50,126 nt of DNA from assembly GCA_902614915.1 (NCBI GenBank), contig CACMMX010000014.1:1-50126 (forward strand), written 5' to 3'. The position numbers and the translations under genes are program-made. Below, one piece after another: positions 31 to 15,220 of the stretch; position 1 is the stretch's first letter; every line of letters starts with the position of its first letter. The notes beneath the pieces were generated by a model that saw only the letters and a program-made list of their open reading frames with translations, ran no database searches and was not told where the DNA came from. The DNA is from an uncultured Cryomorphaceae bacterium (GTDB lineage Bacteria; Bacteroidota; Bacteroidia; Flavobacteriales; Schleiferiaceae).

Positions 31-924
31 ATGCTTCCTAATTTTTTTATCGCTGGGGTTTCAAGAAGTGGTACCACATCACTATATTATTATATGAGCC
101 AACACCCACAAATAGACTTTCCCGAACTCAAGGAACCACGATATTTTAGTCACGGCAGTGTTGTGCTTCCACAAAAAGGCCCGGGAGACCATACTGTTGA
201 TCAGAAATTAGTCGCCACATGGGATGAATATTGCGCTATTTACAAGGGACTCGAAAACACTTTTATTGGAGACGCTAGTTCAGAGTATCTGTATAACTAT
301 CAAAGTGTCATCCCAGAAACGTTAAAGAGACTTGGTGACATCCCAATAATACTCATGTTAAGAAATCCTGTGGACCGAAGCTATTCTGCATACAACAACC
401 TTGTTAGAGACGGTCGAGAAACACTAACTTTTGAGCAAGCTCTTCAAAAAGAAGAAGAAAGAAAAAGAGCTAATTTTGATGAAATGTGGCATTATACAAG
501 TGTCTCAAAATATTCAAAATCTGTAAATGCCTTTAAGACAAAATTCTCAAAAATTAAGGTTCTTATTTTTGAAGAGTTTATAGAAAATCCCGAAAAATAT
601 GTATCTGAAATTTTTGACTTCTTAGGTGTACCCCAGTTAGAGCACGTTAATACAACTACTGCATACAGTAGAAGTGGCAAACCAAAATCAAGATTTATCA
701 CGCTTTTTTTTGGCCGAAATAGTTCCTTAGGAAACACCATAAGGAATATTGTTTTCTCTATTCTTGGGAGAACAATCGTTGAAAAGCTCGGCACATATTT
801 AATAAGTAAAAATGAAGGTGTGCCTCAAGAATTAAGAAAAGCATTGAATCAATATTTTGCTAATGACATTAAAGACCTAGAAACAGTATTAGGAAGAGAT
901 TTAAACCTATGGAAAAACAGTTAA
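31..924 (+). CDS. Sulfotransferase (Sulfotransfer_1 type)
   Basis: Predicted cytosolic PAPS-dependent sulfotransferase of 297 aa, the usual size for bacterial single-domain enzymes. The N-terminal 5'-phosphosulfate loop reads GVSRSGTTSL (residues 9-18), with Arg where many members have Lys. A GDASSEY segment (about 80-86) and the 3'-phosphate motif LRNPVDRSYSAYNN (about 110-123) are both present. It is the first of three plus-strand genes and overlaps the following oxidoreductase by 16 bp. The setting, next to glycosyltransferases, Wzx, Wzy and Wzc, suggests a sugar acceptor in a surface polysaccharide. That acceptor is an inference; some relatives act on lipids or small molecules. It resembles the sulfotransferase at 7222-8133 more than the other four in the locus. 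Confidence 0.88.
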   Translation: MLPNFFIAGVSRSGTTSLYYYMSQHPQIDFPELKEPRYFSHGSVVLPQKGPGDHTVDQKLVATWDEYCAIYKGLENTFIGDASSEYLYNYQSVIPETLKRLGDIPIILMLRNPVDRSYSAYNNLVRDGRETLTFEQALQKEEERKRANFDEMWHYTSVSKYSKSVNAFKTKFSKIKVLIFEEFIENPEKYVSEIFDFLGVPQLEHVNTTTAYSRSGKPKSRFITLFFGRNSSLGNTIRNIVFSILGRTIVEKLGTYLISKNEGVPQELRKALNQYFANDIKDLETVLGRDLNLWKNS

Positions 925-1853
925 GAAATATATTATTGTATGGATTTGGTAGAATGGGCTTAACTCACTTTGCCATTTTAAACGGACTAAAATCTGACCT
1001 ACATTTTTCAGTTTTAGAGACTAATAAAAAAATCGTTGCGATTCTAAGGAAAAATTTCCCAAATGTATCGTTTTATACTGATGAAAATAAGCTTTCCTAT
1101 AAACCTTACGATTTAACTTTAATAACTACTCCCCCTTTTATTCATAAACAACTATTGTCTAAAGTGGTAGAGAGGGGTGATAAAAGGATTTTCGTGGAAA
1201 AGCCTTTTGGTGGACACTTAAATAATAGCATGGATACAATCCTTGAAAATGTATTTATAGGATATGTTTTACGTTTTAACCCTTGTATTCAGTGGGTTAA
1301 GAAAAATATTTCCCAAAAAGATATTGTCAAAGCGAAAGGCCAGTATCTGAGTTATACGCTAGATAAAAAGCCCAAAGGATGGCGTAATGGGGAATACTCC
1401 GGAGTGCTCAATGAAATGGGTTCCCACATTCTTGATTTACTCAATTATCTTATTAATCTTGATGGACATAAGGTTTTACACGCTTCAAAAAAATCAGTCG
1501 TTTCAGATGTAGATGACATAGTCGAAGCCAAACTACAAGTTCCGGGTAAGGAAGTCGAGCTTTATCTAAATTGGGTTAATAAAAATATCAGAAAACCCGT
1601 ATTCGGTTTAGAGTTAGAATTGAGAAATGGACAAAATATTTATATAGATCAACAAATAATTCGTATTTCTGAAAAGGGAAAAATCATAAAGCAAATTTCA
1701 GTGACCGATTTAGTTGCCACAGTTCCTTTCTATCTAAGGGGTGTGGATTTCACCAAACAAATGGAAGACTTAATGGATTCTGCAAACACAATGTGCACTA
1801 TGAATGAAGCGATAAAGGTTAATCAAATTATTAAAGACATCATAAAATCATGA
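909..1853 (+). CDS. Gfo/Idh/MocA-family oxidoreductase
   Basis: NAD(P)-dependent sugar or nucleotide-sugar oxidoreductase of 314 aa. The N-terminus has the Rossmann glycine motif GFGRMG (about 12-17). The family signature EKPFGG follows near residues 97-102, where the Lys of EKP is normally catalytic. The C-terminal half would be the alpha/beta substrate domain. In polysaccharide loci such enzymes usually oxidise or reduce a UDP-sugar or free sugar during building-block synthesis. The gene overlaps the sulfotransferase before it by 16 bp and the gene after it by 4 bp (ATGA), so the three are probably translated together. The exact substrate cannot be read from the sequence. Confidence 0.85.
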   Translation: MEKQLRNILLYGFGRMGLTHFAILNGLKSDLHFSVLETNKKIVAILRKNFPNVSFYTDENKLSYKPYDLTLITTPPFIHKQLLSKVVERGDKRIFVEKPFGGHLNNSMDTILENVFIGYVLRFNPCIQWVKKNISQKDIVKAKGQYLSYTLDKKPKGWRNGEYSGVLNEMGSHILDLLNYLINLDGHKVLHASKKSVVSDVDDIVEAKLQVPGKEVELYLNWVNKNIRKPVFGLELELRNGQNIYIDQQIIRISEKGKIIKQISVTDLVATVPFYLRGVDFTKQMEDLMDSANTMCTMNEAIKVNQIIKDIIKS

Positions 1854-2686
1854 AAATCATATTAGGCGATAATCAGTTTTTTGGTATCAACCATTTCGAT
1901 TTAGAGAAAGGAGCATCAATCAAAAAAAAGTTCGATTCTATTGAGAAAATATGTCGATTTATTCAAGATGCGCTTCAAGTGGGTATGGATGGGTTTATGA
2001 TAAATTCTAATGATGAAGGTTACAAATTAATTTCCAAGGAAAAGTTCCCAAGTTCAAAAGAGATTCACTACAGCATTCCATATGCGCACAAGTATGCCAA
2101 TTTAGTTAATGAAGAAGGTATGATGAGTTTACTTTCTCATATTATGAAAAACACTTCAATGATTTCTAACCTTAAGAGTGGAGCACGTCTTGTAACAAGT
2201 AGAAATCTAAAAAACCTAGTTCCATTAGCGGTAGATCTTGAAGTACCAAAACAACTCCCAAAAAGCAGCTATGTTTACCTTCAAAATATCATAACAGATT
2301 TAGTTTTAGGCCTTGGTAGATACGACCTATTAAAAGAATTTATAATTAGTGTGAGAAAAAATGGATATCAACCTGGAATAGTCACTCTGAATCCTATTAA
2401 ACTTCAAAAGGCATTGGAAATTATTGGAGAAAATTTACAAGATTTAATTATTTGCTTTAATGTGAATGATGTAGGTTTTAATGTTTTCCCTAATAAAGAA
2501 GAAGTTGAAAAATTTGCCAAAGAACAACATTCATTCAAAAAAATGGGAATGAGTGTTTTTGCTAGCGGTGCAGGGAACATACCAGCGTCGATAAATTACA
2601 TTAAGGGACTTAACCTAGATTATGTGGTTTTCGGCACATCTAGACTTGAAAATGTACATGCTAACCTATCAGGATTGAAATCCTAA
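1850..2686 (+). CDS. Unrecognised protein, probable TIM-barrel-like fold
   Basis: I do not recognise this 278-aa family. It begins MKIILGDNQFFGINHFD and shows regularly spaced short hydrophobic strands, for example GMDGFMINS, PGIVTLNP and LIICFNVNDVGF. It ends with FASGAGNIP and YVVFGTSR. That alternation resembles a (beta/alpha)8 barrel with a C-terminal phosphate- or ligand-binding turn, but this is a judgement by eye. No signal peptide or membrane segment is seen. The start codon overlaps the stop of the Gfo/Idh/MocA gene (ATGA), which suggests a shared pathway, perhaps modification of a sugar precursor. Its stop overlaps the stop of the convergent gene at 2683, with no terminator between them. 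Confidence 0.6.
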   Translation: MKIILGDNQFFGINHFDLEKGASIKKKFDSIEKICRFIQDALQVGMDGFMINSNDEGYKLISKEKFPSSKEIHYSIPYAHKYANLVNEEGMMSLLSHIMKNTSMISNLKSGARLVTSRNLKNLVPLAVDLEVPKQLPKSSYVYLQNIITDLVLGLGRYDLLKEFIISVRKNGYQPGIVTLNPIKLQKALEIIGENLQDLIICFNVNDVGFNVFPNKEEVEKFAKEQHSFKKMGMSVFASGAGNIPASINYIKGLNLDYVVFGTSRLENVHANLSGLKS

Positions 2687-3357
2687 AGATTTGATTGGTT
2701 TTTAAAATATTCGTAAAGTAGATAGTCTAATTTATTCTCTTTTTCAAGGCGATTTTTCAATTTTTCATCAAGAGTTAAATATTTGATATAATCTTTTCCT
2801 GTTGCTTTCCTGCGTACCAATACCTCATTCACAAGCTCGATTCCAACTTTCTTGTATACTATTGGAATTTCTTTATTAATATTTTCTGTCAAAATCACTC
2901 TATTAAATTGCTGATAACCCGCCAAAATTTGATTAAAGTGACCAGAATTTAAATTAATAGATTTCATCCATTTACCTAGAAATCTTCTTACAAAATGGGA
3001 TGCCTGAGGGTTTTTAGGAATTAGGAATCGATACCAAAACCAAAATGGGATTTTTCTGCCATACTTGTAATTTGTGTCATAGTTATACGCACTTACTATC
3101 TGTTCGGCAGGGCTTCTGAATAGTGTTATTAGCTCAATGTCTGCGGTTAGCGCGAGTAATCGCATCATCCGTTTTTGATTCAACCGGTGTCCACTAACAA
3201 AATCTAACGCACTAATTTGTGCATCAGATAGATGGTCAAAATCCTTCATATTTGGTTTGTTGACAATCATAACTTTTGATTCGCCCAATGACTCCTTGGC
3301 GTTAAATTCAACAGTTGAAGTACCCGTCTTGGGATTTGAATACATTATCAGTTTCAC
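2683..3357 (-). CDS. Sulfotransferase-like protein
   Basis: Short sulfotransferase-fold protein (224 aa). The 5'-phosphosulfate loop reads NPKTGTST at residues 8-15, with the canonical Lys at 10. A 3'-phosphate motif, LFRSPAEQIVSAYNYD, lies at about 79-94. The region between and after is divergent and rich in aromatic and basic residues, consistent with acceptor binding. It is the last gene of the minus-strand operon and overlaps the glycosyltransferase upstream by 4 bp. A PAPS-dependent role on the locus polysaccharide is inferred from context. It could not be assigned to a narrower family. Confidence 0.75.
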   Translation of the reverse strand: MKLIMYSNPKTGTSTVEFNAKESLGESKVMIVNKPNMKDFDHLSDAQISALDFVSGHRLNQKRMMRLLALTADIELITLFRSPAEQIVSAYNYDTNYKYGRKIPFWFWYRFLIPKNPQASHFVRRFLGKWMKSINLNSGHFNQILAGYQQFNRVILTENINKEIPIVYKKVGIELVNEVLVRRKATGKDYIKYLTLDEKLKNRLEKENKLDYLLYEYFKNQSNL

Positions 3358-4529
3358 GTTAAGATTCTTTTTAAACTTTTCGATAAAGCCTCTTGAGTAT
3401 ATTCTGTATTAACTACTTCATGAGCTGATACTGCCATCTGCCACAGTTCTTCGGGATTTTTAACCGATTCAATGAGATTCAACATCAACTCATCTAAATC
3501 CTTACTCTCATTAAAATGACTTTGTGGCTTCAAATTTGACTTCGTAATTGCGCCTTGTACAGAAAATATAGCTTTTTTGAACATACCAGCTTCTGCTACT
3601 TTTAATTTAAATCCACCACCCATAATTTCTGGAATCAAAGCTATAGAACACTTTGAGTAGAATTTTTCTAAGTCCACTACTTGTCCAGTTATGTATAGAT
3701 CAGGGCATATACGTTTTAATTGAATAGCCAAGTGATCTTCTATCCTACCTACCACATGAAGTTCAAATCCTTCTGAGACCATATGGTTTTCAACAAAGGA
3801 ACTTACGAGTGCTTTTATATTTTGAGCTTTAGGGCCCCAAGTAAAAGAGCCTACAACAATCATCTTCTTTATTTTTTCAAAAAAGTCTTCCTTAGAATTT
3901 AATTTTCCCTCAGCGCCTTTAAGCACTGGTCTCAATAGAGCTGATGAAACCATTTTAATTCCTTTTAAATATTGTAGGTCGTTTTCGCAAATCGCGGTAT
4001 ATCCATTGATATTTTTTAGCAGTTTTTGCTCGTATAATCGCGTGCGCATCGCATCCCATGCATAAACTAGTTTCTTAATCCCATTACTTTCGTTACGATA
4101 ATTGTTTAATGAAAGTAAATATTCTGCATTGTGAGAAACGTATATTTTTTTAACGCTGCTTGGTAATGCCTCAAGACAAAACCCCATTCGTAAATGATTA
4201 ATAATAGCAACATCATATTTTTTATTTCTAGTCCAATCTCTGATTTGTTTTAAATACGATGAGGTACGTCTACTAGTTACCATACCAGGATAACAAGAAA
4301 ACACCAGCTTCAAATTTGATTTTCGATTAAAATCTAAGGCTAAATGACGATTAAAAAATTTACTTTGTTGTTCAGGAATTAAAGGCTGCGACGGTTCAGA
4401 ATTATAATATAAAAGATCAATACTGTAGCCAAAATCAATAAGGCTCTTAAGGATATTCACAGTATAAATTCGATCTCCCGCAAGCAAGGTATATGGATTC
4501 ACATAAGTCAGGAAAAGTATTTTCTTCAT
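3354..4529 (-). CDS. Glycosyltransferase, GT4/GT-B type
   Basis: Predicted GT-B glycosyltransferase of 391 aa. The N-terminus MKKILFLTYVNPYTLLAGDR matches the first Rossmann strand and glycine-containing loop of GT4 enzymes. The second domain begins with a strand reading KKMIVVGSFTW near residue 222. The nucleotide-sugar region contains IPEIMGGGFKLKVAEAGMFKKAIF-like sequence, corresponding to the family E-x7-E area (about 296-320). It should add a sugar from a nucleotide donor to the lipid-linked repeat unit at the inner face of the membrane. It is coupled by 4-bp overlaps to genes on both sides. Donor and linkage cannot be predicted. Confidence 0.85.
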   Translation of the reverse strand: MKKILFLTYVNPYTLLAGDRIYTVNILKSLIDFGYSIDLLYYNSEPSQPLIPEQQSKFFNRHLALDFNRKSNLKLVFSCYPGMVTSRRTSSYLKQIRDWTRNKKYDVAIINHLRMGFCLEALPSSVKKIYVSHNAEYLLSLNNYRNESNGIKKLVYAWDAMRTRLYEQKLLKNINGYTAICENDLQYLKGIKMVSSALLRPVLKGAEGKLNSKEDFFEKIKKMIVVGSFTWGPKAQNIKALVSSFVENHMVSEGFELHVVGRIEDHLAIQLKRICPDLYITGQVVDLEKFYSKCSIALIPEIMGGGFKLKVAEAGMFKKAIFSVQGAITKSNLKPQSHFNESKDLDELMLNLIESVKNPEELWQMAVSAHEVVNTEYTQEALSKSLKRILT

Positions 4530-5269
4530 AACAGTAAACGCTTTATCTCGCGAAGGAGGCGACGCAAATAATTTGGAATATTTTTCAACACCTGTATTAT
4601 ACCAAACAGTTCTCGATGCAAACGTATACGTTCTAAAAAATTTTGTTTGGCATATTGCGCACTTAATCCCCCATCTAAGTAGAAAACTATCGCTGATTTA
4701 ATTAACTCTATGGAATCGGTTTTACATTTCATCGATGCTTTTATTACCCATTTATAATCAGCCAAAATTTTATAGCTTAAATCATACTCAGAAACTACAC
4801 TTCGGTGAATAAATACCGTTTGATGACAAGCAGAAAAATCTTTTCTTAGGTTTTTTATTGTACATGCTTTGGTTTCAATATAGTTTCCATTTACATCCCC
4901 TACTTCCTTAACGTTCATGAAATCTCCAGAGACTAGCCGTATTTTAGGAGTTATTGCTGAGTCAACCTTATTTAAAACAGTGTTATTAAATAATCTATCA
5001 CCCGCATTTAAGAAAAGGAGAAACTCACCCTTTGCTAAAAGAATACCCTTGTTCATTGCATCGTAAAGTCCCTCGTCTTTTTCACTGACTATAAGATCTA
5101 TTTGTTTTTTGTAATTTTTTAAAAGTTCATTTGTATTATCGGTTGAAGCACCATCTATGACGATATATTCAAAACTTTTGAAACTCTGGCTAATTACACT
5201 CTCAACAGTACCTTCTATAGAATCCTCAGCATTGTATGTTACCGTGATGATAGAAAATTTAGGTATCAT
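4526..5269 (-). CDS. Glycosyltransferase, GT2 family
   Basis: GT-A inverting glycosyltransferase of 247 aa. The opening FSIITVTYNAEDSIEGTVES is the standard GT2 N-terminus. IVIDGASTDNT (about 36-46) forms the nucleotide site, and SEKDEGLYDAMNKG (about 62-75) followed by FLNAGD (about 86-91) supplies the metal-binding DxD-equivalent. This SEKDxGxYDAMNKG pattern is typical of the WcaA-like GT2 subgroup in O-antigen and exopolysaccharide loci. No transmembrane segments are evident, so it should be a peripheral cytosolic enzyme. It overlaps the GT4 gene and a sulfotransferase by 4 bp each. The sugar transferred is unknown. Confidence 0.9.
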   Translation of the reverse strand: MIPKFSIITVTYNAEDSIEGTVESVISQSFKSFEYIVIDGASTDNTNELLKNYKKQIDLIVSEKDEGLYDAMNKGILLAKGEFLLFLNAGDRLFNNTVLNKVDSAITPKIRLVSGDFMNVKEVGDVNGNYIETKACTIKNLRKDFSACHQTVFIHRSVVSEYDLSYKILADYKWVIKASMKCKTDSIELIKSAIVFYLDGGLSAQYAKQNFLERIRLHRELFGIIQVLKNIPNYLRRLLREIKRLLL

Positions 5270-5946
5270 AAAGATTCATTTAATACCATTTCTCTATAAC
5301 CAAAGTGATTGAAATCATCCCTGAAATAGTCGTTAAATAAATTTAACACATCTTGAGATGTAAAATATTCTTGAAAATTTTTTCTTCTCTTCGATGAATT
5401 TGTATGAGATACGTTTGTGTAGTTAACACCGATTTTTTTACAAATTATTTTTAAATCTTTTTCTAATCGCTCAAACTTACCAACGAAAGTAACGACTTGT
5501 ACATCTCTCAAATACACAAAGTCAGTTTGCCTTTGGGGATGAGTGCTTAGATAATAACGGATGAATTCATTAAAACTCATCGTATTGGCATCGAAATGCA
5601 AGTAATGACCGCGAGACTGTCTAATATAATGGTATAAACTCACCATATGATCATATGGATTTCGAACAAAGCAAAAAGAGAATTTTCTCTGATAATTTTC
5701 AAGTCCCATACGTTCAATAATCTGTCCTGCTGTCGCATGTTTATGATAACCAGTGATAAACTCCTGACCTTGATTTTCGAGGTTAAAAATTCTAGCATAA
5801 ATACCTATTAATTTCTTTGTCAAGAAGTACTTATAAGTTACTTTTTCAATGAAGCGAGCATAGGGTAAAAATAAATTACTAACCGAGGTGCCCGCTGTCT
5901 TGAAAATGTGAACAAAAATAAAATTCTTTGAAGACGAAATAAGCAT
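5266..5946 (-). CDS. Sulfotransferase (Sulfotransfer_2 type)
   Basis: Sulfotransferase-fold protein of 226 aa. FVHIFKTAGTSVSNLF (residues 11-26) is a clear 5'-phosphosulfate loop of the type seen in carbohydrate sulfotransferases related to Sulfotransfer_2, with Lys at 16. The 3'-phosphate motif FCFVRNPYDHMVSLYHYI lies at about 91-108. This family includes enzymes that act on polysaccharides such as chondroitin, dermatan or heparan, so a sugar acceptor is the most natural guess. It sits between the GT2 gene (4-bp overlap) and the Wzy-like polymerase (2-bp gap). Confidence 0.85.
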   Translation of the reverse strand: MLISSSKNFIFVHIFKTAGTSVSNLFLPYARFIEKVTYKYFLTKKLIGIYARIFNLENQGQEFITGYHKHATAGQIIERMGLENYQRKFSFCFVRNPYDHMVSLYHYIRQSRGHYLHFDANTMSFNEFIRYYLSTHPQRQTDFVYLRDVQVVTFVGKFERLEKDLKIICKKIGVNYTNVSHTNSSKRRKNFQEYFTSQDVLNLFNDYFRDDFNHFGYREMVLNESL

Positions 5947-5948
5947 AC

Positions 5949-7214
5949 CTATCTTTTTTGCTTTTTAAAGATGAGACCAGAATACATGAAAGGCATAAAA
6001 AACATTAGCTCTAAAATGGGTGAAAATGAGGTACCTATGGCAATTATAATAAATAAAACTCCTTTAGAACTAGATCGAATTATTTGCTGTCTCGACAACC
6101 CTATAAAAAGAATCAATCCGAAAGGGATTCCATACTTCACCAAGTATCGAAGAAATGAATTAGAATACTTTACGTTATCCTTACTATTCAAATCTATACC
6201 TTCTGCAATGCCCTTTAATTGATATAAATTTTCATCCCCCGCAAGTGCATTTGAATAAGATTCTAAATTTGATCCCGTTCCTATGATGGGATTCTCACTT
6301 ATTGCAAACAACGCACCTGCAGTATCATAGAATCTCTGGGAAACTGAACCTAGTTTACGAGAATCATTTAAGGCCTCTGAGATATTAATGAATAAAAATG
6401 TAAGGATTATTGGGACACCAATTATTAACATTCCAAACCTCAATCTATTTAATCTTTTCTTAAGAATTTTTGAACCTTCTGAATTTGGTAAAAATGCAAA
6501 TAGTATAACAATTAACGCGGATAAAAGCATTCCTGTAGAAGACCATGCCATAATCATTGCCAAAAAACCAAGAATTATATTTTTAATATTGAATCGTAAG
6601 AAAATATTGATATACAAGAATATTGCAACATAATTCACAAATACACTCGGCTCCCAGAATATACCATGGGCACGCTCTAAGCCTAAACCAAGTACATTAG
6701 AAGCTATGGTATAACCGTTCATATCTGTACTGTTACGAACTGCAAATAAAATATTTGGACCTCTATAAAGTGCTGATCCATCACCTGAAGCATACACCAC
6801 ATTATCAGATCCGAATATTTTTACAACAAAGACGCTTATAATGGCATGAACAATAACAACGAATAAAGCAGAATTTACATTGCGAACAAAAGATAATTCA
6901 CGTGACAGAAATCGCTTAGATAATATGTAAGCAAGCAATACATCTACCAGAGAACGGAGGAACTGCGTACTCAATAAATTGTATTCAATCTGCGTAACCG
7001 AATGAACTAATTGTAAGGATACTAAAACCAACATAATAAGTCCTACTCTCAGAATTTCTTGAAGTTTAAAACCCTCTTTGTAGGTTAGTAAATAGGTTAC
7101 GGTAAGGACAAAAATTGTATAATACGTTTGTAGCCCTGATAACTTGATGAAGGTTCCTCCACCAAGAATCATCAAAATGACGAATAGACTATCCTTACTT
7201 ATTTTCTTTTCCAT
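5949..7214 (-). CDS. O-antigen/exopolysaccharide polymerase, Wzy-like membrane protein
   Basis: Polytopic membrane protein of 421 aa with about ten to twelve hydrophobic helices and one large polar loop at roughly 285-350. The loop contains ENPIIGTGSN and NSFLRYLVKYG, similar to the periplasmic loop of O-antigen ligase/polymerase proteins (Wzy_C type). Wzy proteins join lipid-linked repeat units at the periplasmic face and are very divergent, so topology and position matter most. It lies in an operon with Wzx and Wzc, which completes the inner-membrane part of a Wzx/Wzy pathway. A WaaL-type ligase is the alternative, but a Wzc in the same operon favours Wzy. Confidence 0.78.
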   Translation of the reverse strand: MEKKISKDSLFVILMILGGGTFIKLSGLQTYYTIFVLTVTYLLTYKEGFKLQEILRVGLIMLVLVSLQLVHSVTQIEYNLLSTQFLRSLVDVLLAYILSKRFLSRELSFVRNVNSALFVVIVHAIISVFVVKIFGSDNVVYASGDGSALYRGPNILFAVRNSTDMNGYTIASNVLGLGLERAHGIFWEPSVFVNYVAIFLYINIFLRFNIKNIILGFLAMIMAWSSTGMLLSALIVILFAFLPNSEGSKILKKRLNRLRFGMLIIGVPIILTFLFINISEALNDSRKLGSVSQRFYDTAGALFAISENPIIGTGSNLESYSNALAGDENLYQLKGIAEGIDLNSKDNVKYSNSFLRYLVKYGIPFGLILFIGLSRQQIIRSSSKGVLFIIIAIGTSFSPILELMFFMPFMYSGLIFKKQKR

Positions 7215-7221
7215 TTCTATG

Positions 7222-8133
7222 CTATGCTGTCCAAGGTAGTTTTCTTCCTAAAAGTCGCTCTAATTCCTTGTGATCTTCTTTATAGAAATCTTTTAGGCTT
7301 TGCCTCAAATCATCTGAAATTTCTATTACTGAGTTCTTTCTTTGATTCATTTCTCGCAGTCTATCCCTAATCAGCAGTAGTCTATCTTCACTCATGAAAG
7401 AGCGCATTGCTTTTGCAAAAGCCGAGCGTACCGGATTTTTTGTCATTAAAAAATGATGTAAACCTCGATTTCTTGGTATACCGCTTTTATTAAAGGTCAA
7501 ATCTTCAACGAATTCGCTAGAAGGAATTCCTAAAAATTGATACACCTTATTCATTTGACTGAATGGGTCAGCAATTAAGTCTTCAAAAAACATAATATGA
7601 ATATTTTCAAATGCCTCCATGAAAGCTTTGATACCATCTGCATACAATCCTTGCCGCTTGTATGCGAATATCGAGGACCAATTTTGTGATAAACGATAAT
7701 CTTCTAACTCTAAAGCATTTCTTAATTCTAGATTTTCAAAACCTAGCTCAATAATGTACTGATACTGCGATTTTAATCGGCTAATCGGTTCACGAAGAAC
7801 AAAGAGTATTTTAGTTTCTCTATTACAATACTTAAGAATATTCTTAATGGCATTTTCATATTGAAATAGATAGGATATAGAGCTGTCTCCAAGAATTTTA
7901 CAGTCTTTCCGGTCATAAAGCCGACTGTATTTTTGCTCATTTAAGACAAGATATTCAAGTTGTCTTTGATAATTCGGTGAATCTTTTGATAAGCCTTGAT
8001 AATACTCCTTAATCATAAAACCAGGTTCCTTTATTTTGGGAAAGAAAACATCATTATGCGGATTTAGATATCGAAACAAAGTCGTACTTCCGCATTTAGG
8101 TGCACCTGCAATGATAAAGTTTGGAACATTCAT
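7222..8133 (-). CDS. Sulfotransferase (Sulfotransfer_1 type)
   Basis: Sulfotransferase of 303 aa with a textbook 5'-phosphosulfate loop, NFIIAGAPKCGSTTLFRYL (residues 5-23, Lys 13). KEPGFM follows at about 35-40, LGDSSISYLF at about 81-90, and the 3'-phosphate motif FVLREPISRLKSQYQY at about 111-126. This order resembles NDST/heparan-type and deacetylase-type sulfotransferases. The gene lies between Wzy and another sulfotransferase with only 6-7 bp gaps. Its shared GDxS block suggests kinship with the gene at 31-924. The sugar acceptor is inferred from the locus. Confidence 0.9.
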   Translation of the reverse strand: MNVPNFIIAGAPKCGSTTLFRYLNPHNDVFFPKIKEPGFMIKEYYQGLSKDSPNYQRQLEYLVLNEQKYSRLYDRKDCKILGDSSISYLFQYENAIKNILKYCNRETKILFVLREPISRLKSQYQYIIELGFENLELRNALELEDYRLSQNWSSIFAYKRQGLYADGIKAFMEAFENIHIMFFEDLIADPFSQMNKVYQFLGIPSSEFVEDLTFNKSGIPRNRGLHHFLMTKNPVRSAFAKAMRSFMSEDRLLLIRDRLREMNQRKNSVIEISDDLRQSLKDFYKEDHKELERLLGRKLPWTA

Positions 8134-8139
8134 ATTTTA

Positions 8140-8871
8140 TTACAATTGGTGACCACGAATCCCTCGCCTAACGTATCTCCATGTGAAAATTCTTAGGATA
8201 TGCCACAGTTTATATTGAAGTCTATCCCAGTTGGATGGACTACAATTTCCCCAATCATCAGGAAAAGAATATTCAGAGTTTTCTAGAAATGGCCCCATTT
8301 TCTTGACTGCCAATTTTCTAGTTATTTCGGAATCGTAAAACTCTAAAAAATCTTTCTTTTGTTTTGTTGAATTGAATTTAGGAAGTTTTCTAACCAATGG
8401 AATACCTAATTGAGATAACACTTTTTCAAAATCGTTCTCCAAAGTCTCAAATTTCATCACATAATTCAACTTATGATGATCGAGAGAAGAGACTTCATCG
8501 TATACTTTAGAATGTTGAAGAAATTGTTCATAGTTCCACCCTTTTTTAACTCTTCTATATCTAACTCTATCTCGTATTTGAAAAATAGCTTTTCGCGGAT
8601 CTGCATTTAATTTTTGAGTAAAGCGGTCATTATGATTATTAATCATTTTTTGATAATTACTAACCATTTTATCTAAAGGATTCCTTATACCTGAAAACAC
8701 GAAATAGTTTCGTTGTTCTCTATTTGCATTTGCTAAAAATGTGGAATAAACAGCATGTTTTGATAATATAGCTCGGCCTTCGTAATTCTCTACCAATTCT
8801 TTCGCAACAGCGGAACTACCTGTCATCGGGGTTTGAATAAACACATATCTATGTGTATCAGAAATAATCAT
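8140..8871 (-). CDS. Sulfotransferase-like protein with altered PAPS loop
   Basis: Sulfotransferase-fold protein of 243 aa. The N-terminal strand and loop read YVFIQTPMTGSSAVAKELV (residues 9-27), aligning with the usual PKTG-type loop but with Met in place of the basic residue. The 3'-phosphate motif is intact at about 58-75: VFSGIRNPLDKMVSNYQK. The C-terminal part is rich in basic and aromatic residues. It overlaps the next sulfotransferase by 4 bp and follows the operon pattern. It may be an active variant using another base, or a protein that binds PAP/PAPS without transfer. Confidence 0.72.
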   Translation of the reverse strand: MIISDTHRYVFIQTPMTGSSAVAKELVENYEGRAILSKHAVYSTFLANANREQRNYFVFSGIRNPLDKMVSNYQKMINNHNDRFTQKLNADPRKAIFQIRDRVRYRRVKKGWNYEQFLQHSKVYDEVSSLDHHKLNYVMKFETLENDFEKVLSQLGIPLVRKLPKFNSTKQKKDFLEFYDSEITRKLAVKKMGPFLENSEYSFPDDWGNCSPSNWDRLQYKLWHILRIFTWRYVRRGIRGHQL

Positions 8872-9776
8872 TTTCTATTTTTCGTTAAATAAGACCTAAT
8901 TAGAGCAATAGTATCAATAGTACCTTGCCAAAAATTTAGGTATGCCCACCAACTTATTTTATTAAAGTCATTTTTTACCATAGATTTTGTTATTCCTGAA
9001 AAATGAAAGTAGTCATCCGGTGTTGCAGAAAAAATTTTTTTAAAAATCAAATACTTTATAGGACTATTAACCTTCTGGTACCAAAACGATTTTTTCGAAC
9101 GAATACCTTCATTATGAATCATAGCCTTCGGATCACCCATTACGCCATCTACCTCAATACTGCTTACATTCTGTGCATCAATATCATCAAGATTTAAAAA
9201 TGAATTGAGCTGCACAACACAATTAGTTTCTGAACAAATCAAATCATTATAATCAAGTTGAAAAATATTGTCATGTTGATTATGAAGACTATCGCTGATT
9301 TTTTTTACGCTTTGATACAAATCCATTTTGTATTTATAATAAGCGTGAAAGGTGTCATTATGTGCAGTCAATTTAGACGAAAGAATTTCCAATGGATTTC
9401 TAGTTAAAAATATGAATTTAGCATGTGGAAATAATTTTCTCAATTCCTCAACAATCAAATAGTACCTCGGCGTCTTGTCTAAAAAATAACCGCAGTCCGG
9501 CGCCAATAAAGCATAAACTTTCTGCACCATATTTACAATTTCATTATTTAAACTACTTCCTGTTTGCTTCTTAAAATATTTATCAAAATCATGGATTGCT
9601 TTTGAAGCAATTCTTTTATTGTAAGATTCATATCCTTGATCAGACTTATATTGAATTATAGGTAAAAGCCACCAAGGTTCTGCAGTCGTATTGATCTTCT
9701 CTGAAGTGACTAAAAGCTTTTGTAATATGGTGCTTCCACTCCTGGGTGCTGAAATCAAGAAGATTATTTGCTTCAT
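8868..9776 (-). CDS. Sulfotransferase (Sulfotransfer_3 type)
   Basis: Sulfotransferase of 302 aa. IIFLISAPRSGSTILQKLL (residues 4-22) is the 5'-phosphosulfate loop with Arg 12. FLDKTPRYY (about 98-106) is a block typical of Sulfotransfer_3-like bacterial enzymes, and FIFLTRNPLEILSSKL (about 121-136) is the 3'-phosphate motif. The EPWWLLP segment (about 33-39) is also common in this subgroup. It is the first sulfotransferase after the flippase gene in transcription order. Acceptor unknown; a position on the exported polysaccharide or its lipid-linked repeat is inferred. Confidence 0.85.
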   Translation of the reverse strand: MKQIIFLISAPRSGSTILQKLLVTSEKINTTAEPWWLLPIIQYKSDQGYESYNKRIASKAIHDFDKYFKKQTGSSLNNEIVNMVQKVYALLAPDCGYFLDKTPRYYLIVEELRKLFPHAKFIFLTRNPLEILSSKLTAHNDTFHAYYKYKMDLYQSVKKISDSLHNQHDNIFQLDYNDLICSETNCVVQLNSFLNLDDIDAQNVSSIEVDGVMGDPKAMIHNEGIRSKKSFWYQKVNSPIKYLIFKKIFSATPDDYFHFSGITKSMVKNDFNKISWWAYLNFWQGTIDTIALIRSYLTKNRK

Positions 9777-9788
9777 TTGTTCAAAAAA

Positions 9789-11096
9789 TTATGGTTGCAG
9801 AACTCTCTTATACATGAAGAATACCTTTGCAAGGTTTGATAATAGCATTATTATGGTGAAGGTAATTGCGGCGCCTATAATTCCATACTTAATTGTAAGT
9901 ATTAAACTTAATATGACCTGAAGAAGTACTGAAATTATATTGATAATAGAATGAATACTTTCTTGACCCGTCATCGCCAAAATAGGACCAGCTACCGATG
10001 TGGCAGCATTGATTAAAAAACCTAATGCCAAAATTAAAAGTGACAAATACACCTCATACTCTTCAATATTCCAAATTAAAAGAATATCCCGACCTAAAAT
10101 CAAGACAAGCAGAAAGAACAACAACCCAAGGACACCTGCAAATAGACCAATCTTCTGGAAGGCCTGCTCTAAATACTTAATATCACCATCAGCGTATTTC
10201 TTGGCAATTCTCGGCATCGAAGACCGCTGAAATGCAATTAATATAAATGCTATTGGTGTAGCAATTTTCATCAAAATATTAAAAACTCCTACATCTACTG
10301 GATTAGATGTAAAACCCAATATCAATGAATTTATTGTATTATAAGAATATGAAGTTAGAGCAATTAGTAAGAAACTTCTTCTGGATGCTTTTGAATCAAA
10401 ACCAGGTTGCTTGGTTATGTTCTCCAAGCCACGTTTATAAAAACTTATATCAAGATCAAGTCCTTTGGATAGGTAAAAAGAAAAAATAAAATACATTACA
10501 TATCTAGCGAGGACAAAGCATGTTACGACTGAATATAAATTCAGATTAAAACCAAATTGATTAAAGACTAATAAAAAAGTTAAAAGTAAAGCGCTTGTGA
10601 GAGTTTGCTCCGTTAGGTTCGCTTGCCAAACTTTTTTCATTCCTAGCAATACGCCCGAAAATATTCTAGAGACTGTTTGAGGAATCAAACCAACTGTTAA
10701 AATGATAAATGGAAATACAAATGAGGGGCTGTCAAAAAGAATATTAAATAAAGGATAAGCCGCAACAAATAAGAACAACATCATCAGTATAGATCTAGAA
10801 AAAATATAACGATGAAGCATGGAAGCGTAAAACTCCACTTTGGATCTATCTTCTCTTATTTTACTAATTTCACGGGTAGTTATTTGATTATAACCAGCAA
10901 GAATAAAAAGGAGGGAATAATTTAAGATTTGATTTCCTAATGAAATCAAGCCATATGCTCCCTTACCAATAACACGAGTAATATAGATACTTAATGCTAT
11001 GGTCATAACCGCACCAAGTACTTTAACTAAAATTACCATTAAAGCGTCCGAGCCCAAAGAACCCTTCTTGACCGCCTGCGTGATTTGACCCTTCAT
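9789..11096 (-). CDS. Polysaccharide flippase, Wzx/MATE-like
   Basis: Integral membrane protein of 435 aa with about twelve to fourteen predicted helices. The N-terminal pattern is typical of Wzx (Polysacc_synt) proteins: a first helix containing VKVLGAVMTIALSIYITRVIG, then GAYGLISLGNQIL and LAGYNQITTREISK. Wzx moves undecaprenyl-diphosphate-linked repeat units to the periplasmic face. It is the second gene of the operon, 15 bp after wzc, and comes before the transferases. With Wzy and Wzc this defines a Wzx/Wzy-dependent pathway rather than an ABC-transporter route. Other oligosaccharide exporters of this superfamily cannot be excluded. Confidence 0.88.
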   Translation of the reverse strand: MKGQITQAVKKGSLGSDALMVILVKVLGAVMTIALSIYITRVIGKGAYGLISLGNQILNYSLLFILAGYNQITTREISKIREDRSKVEFYASMLHRYIFSRSILMMLFLFVAAYPLFNILFDSPSFVFPFIILTVGLIPQTVSRIFSGVLLGMKKVWQANLTEQTLTSALLLTFLLVFNQFGFNLNLYSVVTCFVLARYVMYFIFSFYLSKGLDLDISFYKRGLENITKQPGFDSKASRRSFLLIALTSYSYNTINSLILGFTSNPVDVGVFNILMKIATPIAFILIAFQRSSMPRIAKKYADGDIKYLEQAFQKIGLFAGVLGLLFFLLVLILGRDILLIWNIEEYEVYLSLLILALGFLINAATSVAGPILAMTGQESIHSIINIISVLLQVILSLILTIKYGIIGAAITFTIIMLLSNLAKVFFMYKRVLQP

Positions 11097-11111
11097 TTTT
11101 ATTTTAACTAT

Positions 11112-13535
11112 CTAGTTCCCGTAGTCGCCATAACCATAGCCATAACCGTGGCCATAGCCGTAACCGTAACCGTAACCATAGCCATAGCCGTGAACCACTG
11201 CATTGAAAATTAAACCAACATTGCTCAATTCGCCTTGGCGATATTGATCATCCAAAAAAGCTATGCTTTCAAGGTTAGTATAATTAAATCGGGTAACATA
11301 TAATAGTCCATCAAAATAAGGCTCCATTTGTAAAGCGTCCGTGACAAGACCAATAGGCGGCGTGTCGACGATAATATATTCGTACTCTTTTCGCAGAATC
11401 TCAATGAGTAGTCCGAATTTTTTATTTTGAATCAACTCAGAAGGATTGGGTGGAAGTGGCCCAGCACTAAACACTGAGAGATTATCATATTTCGTTGGTA
11501 GTATACATTCTTTCCATTCAACCTGGTTGCTTAAATAAGAGGAAAAACCAATGCTATTGGACACTTCAAAATCCTGAAATATTTTCGGTTTTCTCATATC
11601 ACCGCCAATCAAAAGAACCTTATCGCCTCCTAAAGCAAGAACAGATGCGAGATTAATGGCTGTAAACGTCTTTCCTTCACCGCCAATGGATGAAGTAACA
11701 CCTATCGCCACGCCTATGCCATTTTCTGGCTCTCGCATTATGAATTTTATTTTTGTCCTAAGTGAACGGTATGACTCAGAAATCGAACTTTTCGGTCTAT
11801 CGAATACAACAAGACTCGTTTCGTGTTCTGAATAAGGTATCATTCCAGCCAAAGGTACTGTTGTAGCCTTTTCTAAATCTCTTTTACTTTTTAATTTATT
11901 ATCCAAAGCATTAATAATTAGAATTACTACTACGGGAATAAATAAACCAAAAAAGAGAGCTGTTAAGTAATTGAATGAACGATTGGGCGATATTTCTCTT
12001 TGTCCTCTATTGACCGCAGGATCAATAACTTTAGTATCAGGAACATTCGAGGCTCGTAATATCCCAGCTTCAGAACGTTTTTCCAATAATAATTGATATT
12101 GACCGCCTCGAACCTCATACTTTCTTTGGATATTTATCAACTGTTGTTCCGTTGACGGTAGTTTTGACATCTCCGCTTCAGCAGCTTTAATGCGTTGATT
12201 AACATCTTTCAGGACTATATAGGAAGAACTAAGTGCGTTATTAGTTGCATTTAAAAGTGCTTGTCTAGAATAAGCGACTTCATTTTCCAAATCTCTTCGT
12301 GCAGGATTATTTCTTTCTAGAGTAAGTTGAACGCGCTCCAAAGTAATGCTACTTGAAACTAATTGCTCGGCAAGCTGCATAACAATAGGATCATCAAAAG
12401 CCCCCATCGACGGTATAGAAAGACCTGAGTAATTCTGTTCATTCTGTAAAAAATCTATTACATATAGATAGAAAGACCTTTTTAATGTAAGAGCCGACTT
12501 TTCCTGCTCTAATGCTATGAAATATTCGAGCATTTGTTCCGACTTAGTATTCAAATCGATAATCAAGTTTTGTGAACGAAAATCCTCTAATGCTGTTTCA
12601 CTATCCTTGAGAGCAGATTCAAGAATCATTAATTGCTCATCAATAAACTCAATAGTATTTATGGCCATTTGATTTTTCTGTCTAAGCTCATAGGCTTGTA
12701 ACTCAGCTATACTCGCATTAAGATAATCTGCAAGTTTCTGTCGATTATAACCTCTCATTTCGACAGTTAACAATGAAGATTTGTCTCTCTCATCGCTGCG
12801 CATAGAGATATTTTTTATAGCCCATTGCGATACATTGTCGTATGATTTAAAAATGAACGACCGAGTCCGGTCATCTTCAATATTGAAACCTGTGCCTTTA
12901 AAAATTCTAAATCGGTAGTATTGGGATTCAACCCATTGTCCCCAAGAGACAAAACCAAGGTCAGCCTCTAAATCTAATGTCTTTGGAAGAGCGGTTTGGG
13001 TATTATTTGAATATTCAATACTCGATAAGCTTTTTGATTCTTGTTTTGTTGTGATATACAATCCATCTTCTGAGACGGACAAATCGAACCTTAATCCTCC
13101 AATTTGTGGATGATTTTTATCCCAATCTATTTGTATATAACTCTGACCATAAGCCTCCCTCCTGCCAAGTACACCACGCGAAGAAATCTGTAATTCCCAA
13201 CCCAGCTGCTTGGCTACTCTATTGTTATGGGCAAAAGAAGTGAGAATAGCTTTTCTAGTATCAACTACACCCGTTCCGCCAAGTGAAAATGCATATTCTA
13301 ACGAATTATCAGAAGCCAACGGATTTACAGATTCTTCAATCGCCGCAGTCATACTAACTTGATATGTGTTTTTTGTATATCTATTGATGCCAAAAGCTAA
13401 AATCAGCGAGATAAAAACACTCAAAACTATAATCGGCCATTTAGATATTAACAAATATCCGATACGCATAAAGTCACGCAAACCGACCTCATTATCTCTC
13501 TCTTTCTTCATTCCGAAATTATATTCCTCAGCCAT
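11112..13535 (-). CDS. Wzc-type polysaccharide co-polymerase and tyrosine autokinase
   Basis: Chain-length regulator fused to a BY-kinase, 807 aa. A first TM helix lies near residues 34-50 and a second near 524-545, enclosing a periplasmic Wzz-like domain with long coiled-coil helices (about 290-480). The cytosolic kinase has Walker A GGEGKTF (about 618-624), Walker A' GGDMRKP (about 644-650) and Walker B IIVDTPP (about 721-727). The C-terminus is a tail of Gly-Tyr repeats (from about 172 residues past the Walker A start) with ten tyrosines, the likely autophosphorylation cluster. It is the first gene of the polysaccharide operon. No outer-membrane Wza partner is visible. Confidence 0.93.
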   Translation of the reverse strand: MAEEYNFGMKKERDNEVGLRDFMRIGYLLISKWPIIVLSVFISLILAFGINRYTKNTYQVSMTAAIEESVNPLASDNSLEYAFSLGGTGVVDTRKAILTSFAHNNRVAKQLGWELQISSRGVLGRREAYGQSYIQIDWDKNHPQIGGLRFDLSVSEDGLYITTKQESKSLSSIEYSNNTQTALPKTLDLEADLGFVSWGQWVESQYYRFRIFKGTGFNIEDDRTRSFIFKSYDNVSQWAIKNISMRSDERDKSSLLTVEMRGYNRQKLADYLNASIAELQAYELRQKNQMAINTIEFIDEQLMILESALKDSETALEDFRSQNLIIDLNTKSEQMLEYFIALEQEKSALTLKRSFYLYVIDFLQNEQNYSGLSIPSMGAFDDPIVMQLAEQLVSSSITLERVQLTLERNNPARRDLENEVAYSRQALLNATNNALSSSYIVLKDVNQRIKAAEAEMSKLPSTEQQLINIQRKYEVRGGQYQLLLEKRSEAGILRASNVPDTKVIDPAVNRGQREISPNRSFNYLTALFFGLFIPVVVILIINALDNKLKSKRDLEKATTVPLAGMIPYSEHETSLVVFDRPKSSISESYRSLRTKIKFIMREPENGIGVAIGVTSSIGGEGKTFTAINLASVLALGGDKVLLIGGDMRKPKIFQDFEVSNSIGFSSYLSNQVEWKECILPTKYDNLSVFSAGPLPPNPSELIQNKKFGLLIEILRKEYEYIIVDTPPIGLVTDALQMEPYFDGLLYVTRFNYTNLESIAFLDDQYRQGELSNVGLIFNAVVHGYGYGYGYGYGYGHGYGYGYGDYGN
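11115..11189 (-). repeat. Hexanucleotide-type tandem repeat encoding a Gly-Tyr tail
   Basis: The 3' end of the wzc-like gene is made of near-identical 6-bp units (GGN TAY on the coding strand) encoding nine Gly-Tyr pairs interrupted by one Gly-His, then GDYGN. Third-position differences between units show it is not a perfect DNA repeat. Unit gain or loss would keep the frame and change the number of tyrosines available for phosphorylation. Confidence 0.85.
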
Positions 13536-13595
13536 AAATTTTTAATGAAAATTGGTCCTAGGAATTTGCTATTTCTTTAATGAAATTGATAAATC

Positions 13596-13626
13596 CAATA
13601 GTACCATGCAAGATTAAATTGTTCAA
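13596..13626 (-). promoter_or_regulatory. Possible promoter of the polysaccharide operon
   Basis: On the minus strand a TTG is followed after 20 bases by TACTATTG, close to the Bacteroidota TTG / TAnnTTTG arrangement. It lies about 60 bp before the wzc start and downstream of the terminator of the preceding gene, where an operon promoter is expected. The -7 element has one mismatch, so this is a weak call. Confidence 0.35.
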
Positions 13627-13712
13627 TGTATTTAAGTTTGATCTAAACAAGGTGATTTTAATTGATTCACAACGTAACTAGAAAAAACTATAAGCGGCGC
13701 AAAATAGCAAAT

Positions 13713-13749
13713 AAAAAGGCCGAATTCAATAATGACTTCGGCCTTTTTT
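13713..13749 (-). terminator. Intrinsic terminator, 12-bp stem
   Basis: AAAAAGGCCGAA pairs perfectly with TTCGGCCTTTTT across a 12-base loop, with T-tracts on both strands. It lies just after the stop of the SPFH gene at 13772, reading leftwards, and separates that gene from the polysaccharide operon. Confidence 0.88.
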
Positions 13750-13771
13750 AAATCAAAAAATTTAATATTCA

Positions 13772-14545
13772 TTAATTTCCATCTTCAGAAATCAGAACTG
13801 GTGCATTACCATCCGTAATAATAAGTTTCGAATTGGGCGAAGCACTCAGCTTTTCAAGGACTTCTAATGAACGCCACTTAATAATTTCTTCCGACAAACC
13901 TTCTGCTAATATTTGCTGTGCATCTCTTACACCCTGAGCCTCTATCTTTTTACGTTGAGCTTCAAGCCGTTCTTGTTGAAGTTCAAATTCCATTCTTTGT
14001 GCAATTTGCTCAGCCTCTAATTTACTCTCAATGGCCTCATATAAGCCCGAAGGAAGAGAAATTGACTTCATTAAAACAGATTCTATTACAAAACCTCTAT
14101 CCAAAATTAAGCTATCCATATGATTTTTTATTGCATTCTCTATTACAGATCTTTGACCGCTATGCATATCCTTAGCCATGTAACGAGAACAAACATCCGC
14201 CGCCGCCGAACGAAAAACGGATAGTATCATTACGTCTTCGTAACGTTCACCAACAGTTTGAATAACATCAGGTGCATCGGTGGATTCAATATGATAAAGA
14301 ATAGAAATTTCAGCTAGAACATTTAGACCTTCTTTCGAAGGTAAGTTCAACCTTACTTCGCGATTTACTGTACGAGTTGGCACTGCTACTACTCTTGTAA
14401 TAAGAGGATTTACGGTGATTAAACCAGGTTGATATACACGAGGTTTCAACTTTCCCAAAGTAGACTTTACCCCAACATAACCAGGATTAACAACGACACA
14501 GGAAGAAAGAACAACCAATCCTATTATTGGAAAAATTTTTCTCAT
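13772..14545 (-). CDS. SPFH/prohibitin-family lipoprotein
   Basis: SPFH (band 7/prohibitin) domain protein of 257 aa. The N-terminus MRKIFPIIGLVVLSSC is a lipoprotein signal with Cys 16 as the lipidated residue. The next stretch, VVVNPGYVGVKSTLGKL, is the standard prohibitin-like SPFH start. NREVRLNLPSKEGLNVLAEI (about 60-79) and the Glu/Arg/Gln-rich helix at about 170-215 (EAEQIAQRMEFELQQERLEA) are typical of the domain and its coiled coil. Such proteins form ring-like membrane scaffolds, often linked to proteases. Here the scaffold would face the periplasm if lipidated. The gene stands alone, ends at a strong terminator and is divergent from the lipoprotein/TonB cassette. Confidence 0.85.
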   Translation of the reverse strand: MRKIFPIIGLVVLSSCVVVNPGYVGVKSTLGKLKPRVYQPGLITVNPLITRVVAVPTRTVNREVRLNLPSKEGLNVLAEISILYHIESTDAPDVIQTVGERYEDVMILSVFRSAAADVCSRYMAKDMHSGQRSVIENAIKNHMDSLILDRGFVIESVLMKSISLPSGLYEAIESKLEAEQIAQRMEFELQQERLEAQRKKIEAQGVRDAQQILAEGLSEEIIKWRSLEVLEKLSASPNSKLIITDGNAPVLISEDGN

Positions 14546-14608
14546 TTTGTATTATTTACTAATTGATTTTCAAAAATCACGCCAAAATTACTGATTAGCA
14601 AAAACATA

Positions 14609-14627
14609 AATGCAACAATGTTGCATT
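14609..14627. promoter_or_regulatory. 19-bp palindrome resembling a Fur/Zur operator
   Basis: AATGCAACAATGTTGCATT is a perfect inverted repeat around a single central base. Its core TGCAACA-A-TGTTGCA has the 7-1-7 symmetry typical of Fur-family sites. It lies 48 bp before the lipoprotein ATG at 14675, and a Fur-family regulator is encoded two genes downstream. A role as zinc-responsive operator is inferred. Confidence 0.6.
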
Positions 14628-14630
14628 AAT

Positions 14631-14642
14631 AATGATATCATT
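14631..14642. promoter_or_regulatory. 12-bp palindrome next to the Zur-like box
   Basis: AATGATATCATT is a perfect palindrome three bases after the 19-bp inverted repeat. It may be a second half of a composite operator or simply AT-rich promoter sequence. Confidence 0.3.
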
Positions 14643-14674
14643 GTATATTTCACGTTTAAAATTAAAACTTGACT

Positions 14675-15220
14675 ATGAAAACCTTAAAAATTATTCCACT
14701 TGTTATTTTGGCAATGAGTTTATTCTCTTGTGAACCAAATGAGCCTGTTAACCCGAATGAAGAAGAACTAATAACAACATTCAACGTTAATCTCGAAGCT
14801 AACGGTTTAAGTTTAACACTTAATTATCAAGATTTAGATGGTGATGGCGGTAATGACCCTATTATCAGCGTTGATACGTTAAGTGCAAATACTACGTATT
14901 CCGGTTCGATAACATTATTTAATGAGAGTGTTACCCCTACTGAAGAGATTACCCCAGAGGTCTTCGATGAGGCTGACGAACACCAATTTTTCTTCAGCTC
15001 TGATGGTTCTTCCTCTTTTGCGTATAAAGACCAAGACAATAATGGCAATCCACTTGGGCTATCTTTTGAATTAACAACCGGAAATTCAGGAAGCGAAGTA
15101 CTTACATTTGTATTACGCCACGAACCAGATAAGTCAGCACCAGGTGTTAGTTCAGGTGATATTACAAACGCCGGAGGTGAAACAGACATTGAGGTTCCAT
15201 TTAATGTAGTTATTGAATAA
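14675..15220 (+). CDS. Lipoprotein of a probable zinc-uptake cassette
   Basis: Lipoprotein of 181 aa starting at the ATG of MKTLKIIPLVILAMSLFSC; an upstream TTG would add two residues. Cys 19 is the lipobox cysteine. The mature part is acidic and rich in Thr, Ser and Gly, with DLDGDGGNDP (about 50-59) and repeated beta-strand-like segments, suggesting a small all-beta surface or periplasmic domain. I do not recognise a named domain. The gene lies behind a Zur-like palindrome and overlaps the TonB-dependent receptor by 8 bp, so it probably assists that receptor, perhaps in metal capture. Confidence 0.75.
   Translation: MKTLKIIPLVILAMSLFSCEPNEPVNPNEEELITTFNVNLEANGLSLTLNYQDLDGDGGNDPIISVDTLSANTTYSGSITLFNESVTPTEEITPEVFDEADEHQFFFSSDGSSSFAYKDQDNNGNPLGLSFELTTGNSGSEVLTFVLRHEPDKSAPGVSSGDITNAGGETDIEVPFNVVIE

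Follow-up and report, generated by a model that had tools for sequence, protein, structure and literature searches.

According to the available text of a 2024 review, sulfated polysaccharide is known in six bacterial genera (PMC11625862). Among the clusters described, xss of the cyanobacterium Synechocystis PCC 6803, which makes synechan, encodes two sulfotransferases (STs) and eight glycosyltransferases (GTs), with a sugar:sulfate ratio near 8:2, and the same paper, in the portion available, reports STs in many cyanobacterial clusters (PMC8205485). The wps-1 cluster of Actinoplanes missouriensis carries two STs of different families with Wzx, Wzy and Wzz, its sulfation being left unverified by its authors (PMC13390465); the marine bacteria Vibrio KMM 8419 (PMC11641403) and Cobetia marina KMM 1449 (PMC11766843) have STs and 3'-phosphoadenosine 5'-phosphosulfate (PAPS) genes together with polysaccharide genes, the Vibrio cluster holding three STs, one of them assigned to O-antigen; and a Pontiella cluster has one ST. 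As far as these sources describe them, the published clusters that we compared hold one to three STs, and none is described with six. Here we analyse a locus with six, at the extreme start of contig C14 (positions 1-50126, hereafter the window) in the 1.65 Mb assembly, of 54 contigs and 86% complete, of an uncultured Cryomorphaceae bacterium (GCA_902614915.1; G000). We put the probability at roughly 0.74 that this is a Wzx/Wzy locus making a heavily sulfated surface or exported polysaccharide.

Like the synechan and wps-1 clusters, the window joins flippase, polymerase and co-polymerase genes to STs of different kinds. Synechan sulfate has been shown chemically, however, whereas the window offers genes alone, and it pairs six STs with two GTs (three if a WecG-type enzyme found in relatives is counted) where synechan has two and eight and wps-1 has two STs. 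The Vibrio and Cobetia systems share with it a marine setting but export through ABC transporters and keep their PAPS genes within the cluster (PMC11641403, PMC11766843). The first-pass annotation of the window had called sulfated polysaccharides rare in described bacteria, which is right but ageing, given the published Vibrio and Cobetia capsules and the six genera of the review.

An open reading frame (ORF) check of the window found all six ST genes at the positions assigned to them at first pass (31, 2683, 5266, 7222, 8140 and 8868). Five pass the Pfam sulfotransferase cut-offs (27 bits for Sulfotransfer_3, 22 for Sulfotransfer_1 and 22 for Sulfotransfer_2): ORF 31 with Sulfotransfer_3 (58.7 bits) and Sulfotransfer_1 (50.7), 5266 with Sulfotransfer_2 (46), 7222 with Sulfotransfer_1 (54.6), 8140 with Sulfotransfer_2 (38.5) and 8868 with Sulfotransfer_3 (85.6). 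The exception, 2683, is tied to the STs by distant homologs and a profile comparison. Four ST profiles that started from these proteins were run iteratively against 766 ORFs of at least 120 aa (the window plus 63 loci); in the window they returned exactly these six, with zero further matches in its remaining 40 kb. The genes are listed below with the 5'-phosphosulfate-binding (PSB) loop and 3'-phosphate-binding (3'-PB) motifs of the STs; G066 is another genome of the genus.

31-924, plus strand: ST297, Sulfotransfer_3/_1 (Pfam; PDB 3rnl, E 1.2e-52); PSB VSRSGTT (Arg), 3'-PB RNPVDRSYS
909-1853, plus strand: GFO/IDH/MocA-type oxidoreductase, possibly a sugar-nucleotide dehydrogenase (Pfam; NCBIfam NF040723, E 1.3e-14, far under its cut-off; 69% ortholog in G066)
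1850-2686, plus strand: 278-aa protein, unassigned (nothing useful from Pfam, PHROGs, NCBIfam or PDB)
2683-3357, minus strand: ST224, putative divergent Sulfotransfer_2-like ST with a GTG start (profile comparison, distant homologs); PSB NPKTGTS (Lys), 3'-PB RSPAEQIVS
3354-4529, minus strand: glycosyltransferase, Glyco_trans_1_4 (GT4; Pfam; 73% ortholog in G066)
4526-5269, minus strand: glycosyltransferase family 2 (GT2; Pfam; 69% ortholog in G066)
5266-5946, minus strand: ST226, Sulfotransfer_2 (Pfam; PHROG 3347); PSB IFKTAGT (Lys)
5949-7214, minus strand: Wzy-type polymerase (Wzy_C, Pfam; 78% ortholog in G066)
7222-8133, minus strand: ST303, Sulfotransfer_1/_3 (Pfam; PDB 3rnl, E 1.8e-38, and heparan 3-O-sulfotransferases); PSB APKCGST (Lys)
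8140-8871, minus strand: ST243, Sulfotransfer_2 (Pfam); PSB TPMTGSS (Met replaces Lys), 3'-PB RNPLDKMVS kept
8868-9776, minus strand: ST302, Sulfotransfer_3 (Pfam; CurM sulfotransferase and, below cut-off, NoeE); PSB APRSGST (Arg)
9789-11096, minus strand: Wzx flippase (Polysacc_synt, Pfam)
11112-13535, minus strand: Wzc-type co-polymerase and tyrosine autokinase (Pfam GNVR and AAA_31; NCBIfam TIGR01007 above cut-off) with a tyrosine- and glycine-rich tail
17937-19565, minus strand: SulP-family permease (Sulfate_transp, Pfam), 4.4 kb past Wzc and only a candidate for a link to the locus

The six fall into several types, as the first-pass annotation had proposed in counting at least three and denying that they are simple duplicates. 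ST297 and ST303 are homologous at about 29% identity, and both match the heparan 3-O-sulfotransferases as well as 3rnl. ST226 and ST243 resemble each other weakly (23-26% identity), and both match PHROG 3347, Galactose-3-O-sulfotransferase (ST226 with E 5.2e-17); phmmer searches against PDB chains gave nothing useful for either of them. ST302 is a third type, with likeness to NoeE (E 6.4e-13, well under the NCBIfam cut-off) and to the CurM sulfotransferase (E 2.6e-7). We rejected recent tandem duplication as the origin of the set, as the homologous pairs detected are no closer than the identities just given.

Searches of Pfam, PHROGs and NCBIfam assigned ST224, a protein of 224 aa, to no ST family. 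A family-level search of 88 genomes found matches in five, its own included: one ortholog at 72% identity in G066 and three near-full-length proteins at 23-27% identity (E 1e-6 to 5e-5). When these five proteins were aligned, three matched Sulfotransfer_2 at E up to 1 (best 1.2e-6), and the window's protein was not among them; we take the three to be the three distant homologs. A profile of the five compared with one built from the window's two Sulfotransfer_2-type proteins and their relatives gave 96.4% probability and E 1.1e-9, with the PSB and 3'-PB motifs in register. Two weak sulfotransferase matches among PDB chains (phmmer, E 0.15 and 0.85) were not used as proof, and AlphaFold models of ST224 (two sequences) and ST243 (three sequences) had mean pLDDT values of 35.9 and 34.1, too low for use. 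ST224 is probably a divergent Sulfotransfer_2-like ST and a fourth type; we grade it no higher than probable because part of the profile signal stems from the distant members.

According to the available text of the 2024 review (PMC11625862), STs share a core in which the PSB loop carries Lys or Arg and the 3'-PB helix carries Ser. By inspection the Ser is kept in all six STs and the Lys/Arg in five, ST243 having Met, so that the first-pass statement that all six carry both motifs stands for the 3'-PB Ser but fails for the catalytic PSB residue of ST243. Residue alignments were drawn from profile matches at E <1e-6, with identical sequences collapsed to one and four loci that duplicated others removed beforehand; in these sets, which overlap between types, the PSB position is Lys or Arg in 84/84 type-A, 10/13 type-B, 29/29 type-C and 10/11 type-D sequences, and the only departures come from ST243 and its two orthologs, all three of which have Met. 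The gene is nevertheless not decaying, an option that we rejected because ST243 and its orthologs lack internal stops and show dN/dS (nonsynonymous to synonymous substitution) ratios of 0.05 and 0.11, values that are rough because synonymous change is near saturation for G066. All six STs are under purifying selection, with dN/dS of 0.05-0.17 against one or two orthologs each, and are free of internal stops over the regions compared.

The STs are packed into the locus. Ten minus-strand genes run in the order Wzc, Wzx, ST, ST, ST, Wzy, ST, GT2, GT4, ST with gaps of -4 to +15 bp, and the sixth ST, ST297, begins a convergent plus-strand module of three genes that overlap by 4 to 16 bp. The Wzx/Wzy pathway set of flippase, polymerase and co-polymerase is thus present in one locus by Pfam. 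The first-pass description of STs interleaved with Wzx, Wzy, Wzc and two GTs is accurate for Wzy and the GTs, but Wzx and Wzc lie just beyond the 31-9776 interval for which it was made. Separately, we observed at the C-terminus of the Wzc-like kinase a long YGYG repeat tail, an odd-looking version of the expected tyrosine cluster. As to an outer-membrane exporter (Wza/OPX), a 110-aa fragment bordering a compared locus (L084) looks Wza-like by eye, with zero Pfam matches.

Comparison with the 25 genomes of the genus, many of them incomplete, recovered the locus in three. In this comparison of locus content across related genomes, of the kind proposed at first pass, all ten minus-strand genes proved colinear in G066 at 67-84% identity, with gene set and order kept, and a third genome, G067, has Wzx-ST-ST-ST on a 3.6 kb contig. 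The Wzc of G066 is 85% identical; in G067 an N-terminal piece of 54 residues (65%) and a separate 40%-identical Wzc were found, and the other genus genomes gave short matches or none. The SulP permease adjoins the locus in G066 as well and lies on contig C170 in G067. ST297 orthologs are 77% identical in G066 and 93% identical in G067 over a contig-cut 196 aa. From its start, G066 contig C20 carries part of the 278-aa ORF, the MocA gene, ST297, a DUF2334 protein (for which phmmer against PDB chains gave nothing useful) and a WecG-type glycosyltransferase; G067 contig C24 carries ST297, cut by the contig end, followed by DUF2334 and WecG-type genes, and the WecG-type proteins are 93% identical. 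The two ends of the 278-aa ORF match the end of G066 contig C18 and the start of C20, so the G066 arrangement looks the same as the window's. A search of the G000 assembly found no WecG-type match, as expected if its contig simply stops; the left side of the locus is cut off by the contig start, whereas in G066 and G067 the module runs on.

This anatomy is best read, as it was at first pass, as specifying a surface glycan that may be sulfated at several positions. The repeat unit would be assembled in the cytoplasm on undecaprenyl phosphate, started by a WecA-like enzyme encoded on G000 contig C6 and extended probably by GT2, GT4 and, in the relatives, the WecG-type enzyme. Five or six PAPS-dependent STs would decorate it, one position per enzyme, before Wzx flips it, an order that follows the general scheme in the portion of PMC8205485 available; Wzy and Wzc would then polymerise the chain and help export it. 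For the first-pass alternative of a varying sulfation pattern the analysis gave no support, with no dedicated search made for invertible or variable elements.

PAPS would be supplied from contig C6, which holds the sole APS (adenosine 5'-phosphosulfate) kinase of G000 and whose cysN, cysD and cysC genes exceed the NCBIfam cut-offs. The earlier statement that no PAPS-synthesis or sulfatase gene is adjacent holds within the window, which gave no match to the APS kinase, PAPS_reduct and sulfatase families, but the genome does have cysNDC on this other contig, next to further polysaccharide genes. Its neighbours there are UDP-glucose-dehydrogenase-like, UDP-xylose-synthase-like (named by resemblance) and TviB-like genes, a CitMHS/TrkA_C permease, the WecA-like enzyme, gmd, a GDP-fucose-synthase-like gene and a mannose-6-phosphate isomerase cupin. 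Several NCBIfam equivalogs stay below cut-off (TviB 548.8 against 592, TuaD 526.4 against 700, Fcl 464.9 against 500), as does the WecA-like initiating phosphoglycosyl transferase, which lies outside the locus (PF00953, E 2.6e-26; NCBIfam WecA 138.6 against 326). This gene set makes uronic acids, a pentose and fucose likely sugars of the glycan, if the locus draws on it. G069, G076 and G081 likewise group cysNDC and the permease with the WecA-like gene, the isomerase and an NDP-sugar dehydrogenase, and G073 does so without the WecA-like gene. As a side observation, a gene that by eye resembles a tyrosine recombinase adjoins cysNDC in two genomes (L103:3251-4504 and L104:15562-16815). For sulfatases, PF00884 had zero matches in G000 and G067, one sub-threshold match in G066 and strong matches (E <1e-30) in 6/25 genus genomes, which, the assemblies being incomplete, is no more than a hint that sulfated glycan is produced, not consumed, by these cells.

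Several observations weigh against a heavily sulfated product. Sulfotransfer_3 proteins occur in 25/25 genus genomes and Sulfotransfer_2 proteins in 22/25 (18 above the family cut-off), but an APS kinase in just 6/25. The cysNDC-ugd-uxs adjacency is particular to G000, relatives carrying the ugd-uxs pair on other contigs. G066 and G067, both carriers of the locus, had no APS kinase or CysD-type match, other types of ATP sulfurylase not having been searched; both do have cysH (G067 also has one weak sub-cut-off PAPS_reduct match), and since cysH needs APS or PAPS, some source of these should exist in them. Contig ends account for part of the pattern: the contigs of G063 and G078 stop within the permease, beside the expected cysC site, and that of G064 begins inside cysC, which points to assembly gaps in these three. 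Gaps as the explanation for every relative were rejected for G066, where contig C16, next to the isomerase and cysH, runs unbroken into a different polysaccharide locus with glycosyltransferase, deacetylase-like, sugar-transferase-like and flippase-like genes (by eye) and no cysNDC, gmd or permease; this locus (L136, G066:C16:1-15500) occupies the site of G000's cysNDC hub. Nine further cysH-flanking stretches in other genomes also lacked cysNDC, several on contigs of only 4-7 kb, and the absence of cysNDC from most assemblies may have more than one cause. ST243, without its catalytic residue, may be inactive, and GTs encoded elsewhere may contribute further sugars, which would bring the ST:GT ratio down. 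The weakest claim is accordingly the sulfate density: with six STs to about three GTs and a WecA-type start, the synechan ratio would extrapolate to one sulfate per sugar or above, a figure weakened by the chance that other GTs take part and ST243 does not.

Only one or two of the STs might act on the glycan, the rest being inactive or paralogs with other acceptors (lipid, protein or another glycan), and the product would then be lightly sulfated; this seems somewhat unlikely, though in its favour are the conserved Met of ST243, the additional ST genes of G000 on contigs C13, C5, C4 and C6, which suggest that ST substrates may be diverse, and the synechan xssE ST mutant, in which bloom formation and polysaccharide amount were not substantially changed, according to the part of the paper available (PMC8205485). 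The packing of all six among Wzx, Wzy and the GTs or in the adjoining convergent module, their order kept in G066 and the purifying selection on each speak against it. At the opposite extreme lies an improbable elaboration in which the glycan reaches heparin density, with more STs than GTs and at least one sulfate per sugar, the DUF2334 protein exposes an amino group for N-sulfation by ST297, as a split counterpart of the animal enzyme NDST, and ST243 serves as a conserved partner without catalysis of its own, recruiting or positioning the other STs. The DUF2334 protein beside ST297, an order seen in G066 and G067, is presumably deacetylase-like, judging from its motifs.

The chain might alternatively be O-antigen-like and sit on lipid A, not form a capsule or free exopolysaccharide, which we consider rather unlikely. 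The WecA-like start and the WecG-type transferase do resemble O-antigen and enterobacterial common antigen routes, and a sulfated O-antigen has been proposed for Vibrio KMM 8419 in the available text (PMC11641403). The ligase-like gene that we noted by eye, however, belongs to another ST locus, on C5. The window itself has a Wzc-type kinase with a GNVR domain, which is typical of capsule and exopolysaccharide export. Very improbable, finally, is that the six ST-fold proteins do not use PAPS because its synthesis is lacking in most of the genus: the rarity of APS kinase and the replaced hub of G066 would fit, but the window's own genome has cysNDC, the PSB and 3'-PB motifs are intact in five of the six, and in three relatives the contigs stop right beside the missing genes.

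STs recur in other loci of the genus. A second cluster in G000 (L007, G000:C13:8000-27999; 10557-16690) has three type-A STs with aminotransferase-like and flippase-like genes (by eye), and related clusters are present in other genus members. On C4 (L009, 6020-8563) a 251-aa Sulfotransfer_2-like protein adjoins an opposite-strand 598-aa Sulfotransfer_3 protein, a pair that also recurs in the genus. A third kind of locus (L087, L090 and L092, in G067, G000 and G066) combines an ST with a flippase-like gene, and L090 and L092 also have chain-length-like and ligase-like genes (all by eye).

Beyond the genus, a scan of genome contigs with the ST303/ST297 alignment yielded 24 loci. One from Bacteroidetes bacterium B6_G9 (L120, QMPA01000014.1), also Bacteroidota, shares a Wzx-ST-ST-ST-Wzy-GT-GT order by Pfam but differs in having three STs, of Sulfotransfer_1/_3 only; a Chloroflexi metagenome-assembled genome (MAG) has five ST matches in 16.5 kb (L130; 3/5 checked by Pfam); and a Coleofasciculus MAG has six ST-matching ORFs, some of them fragments, in 5.5 kb (L134). 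Short contigs of that MAG (L132-L134) carry between two and six ST-matching ORFs in an array, mostly of type A. Multi-ST loci such as L120, L130 and L134 are thus not unique, but six STs of several families inside a Wzx/Wzy locus conserved between species is extreme among the loci compared.

If this reading is correct, a member of the Bacteroidota with a small genome (about 2 Mb) would be able to make a highly sulfated polysaccharide of a kind usually credited to algae and animals. The locus would then also be a source of position-specific carbohydrate sulfotransferases and, through ST243, a natural test of ST function without the catalytic lysine.

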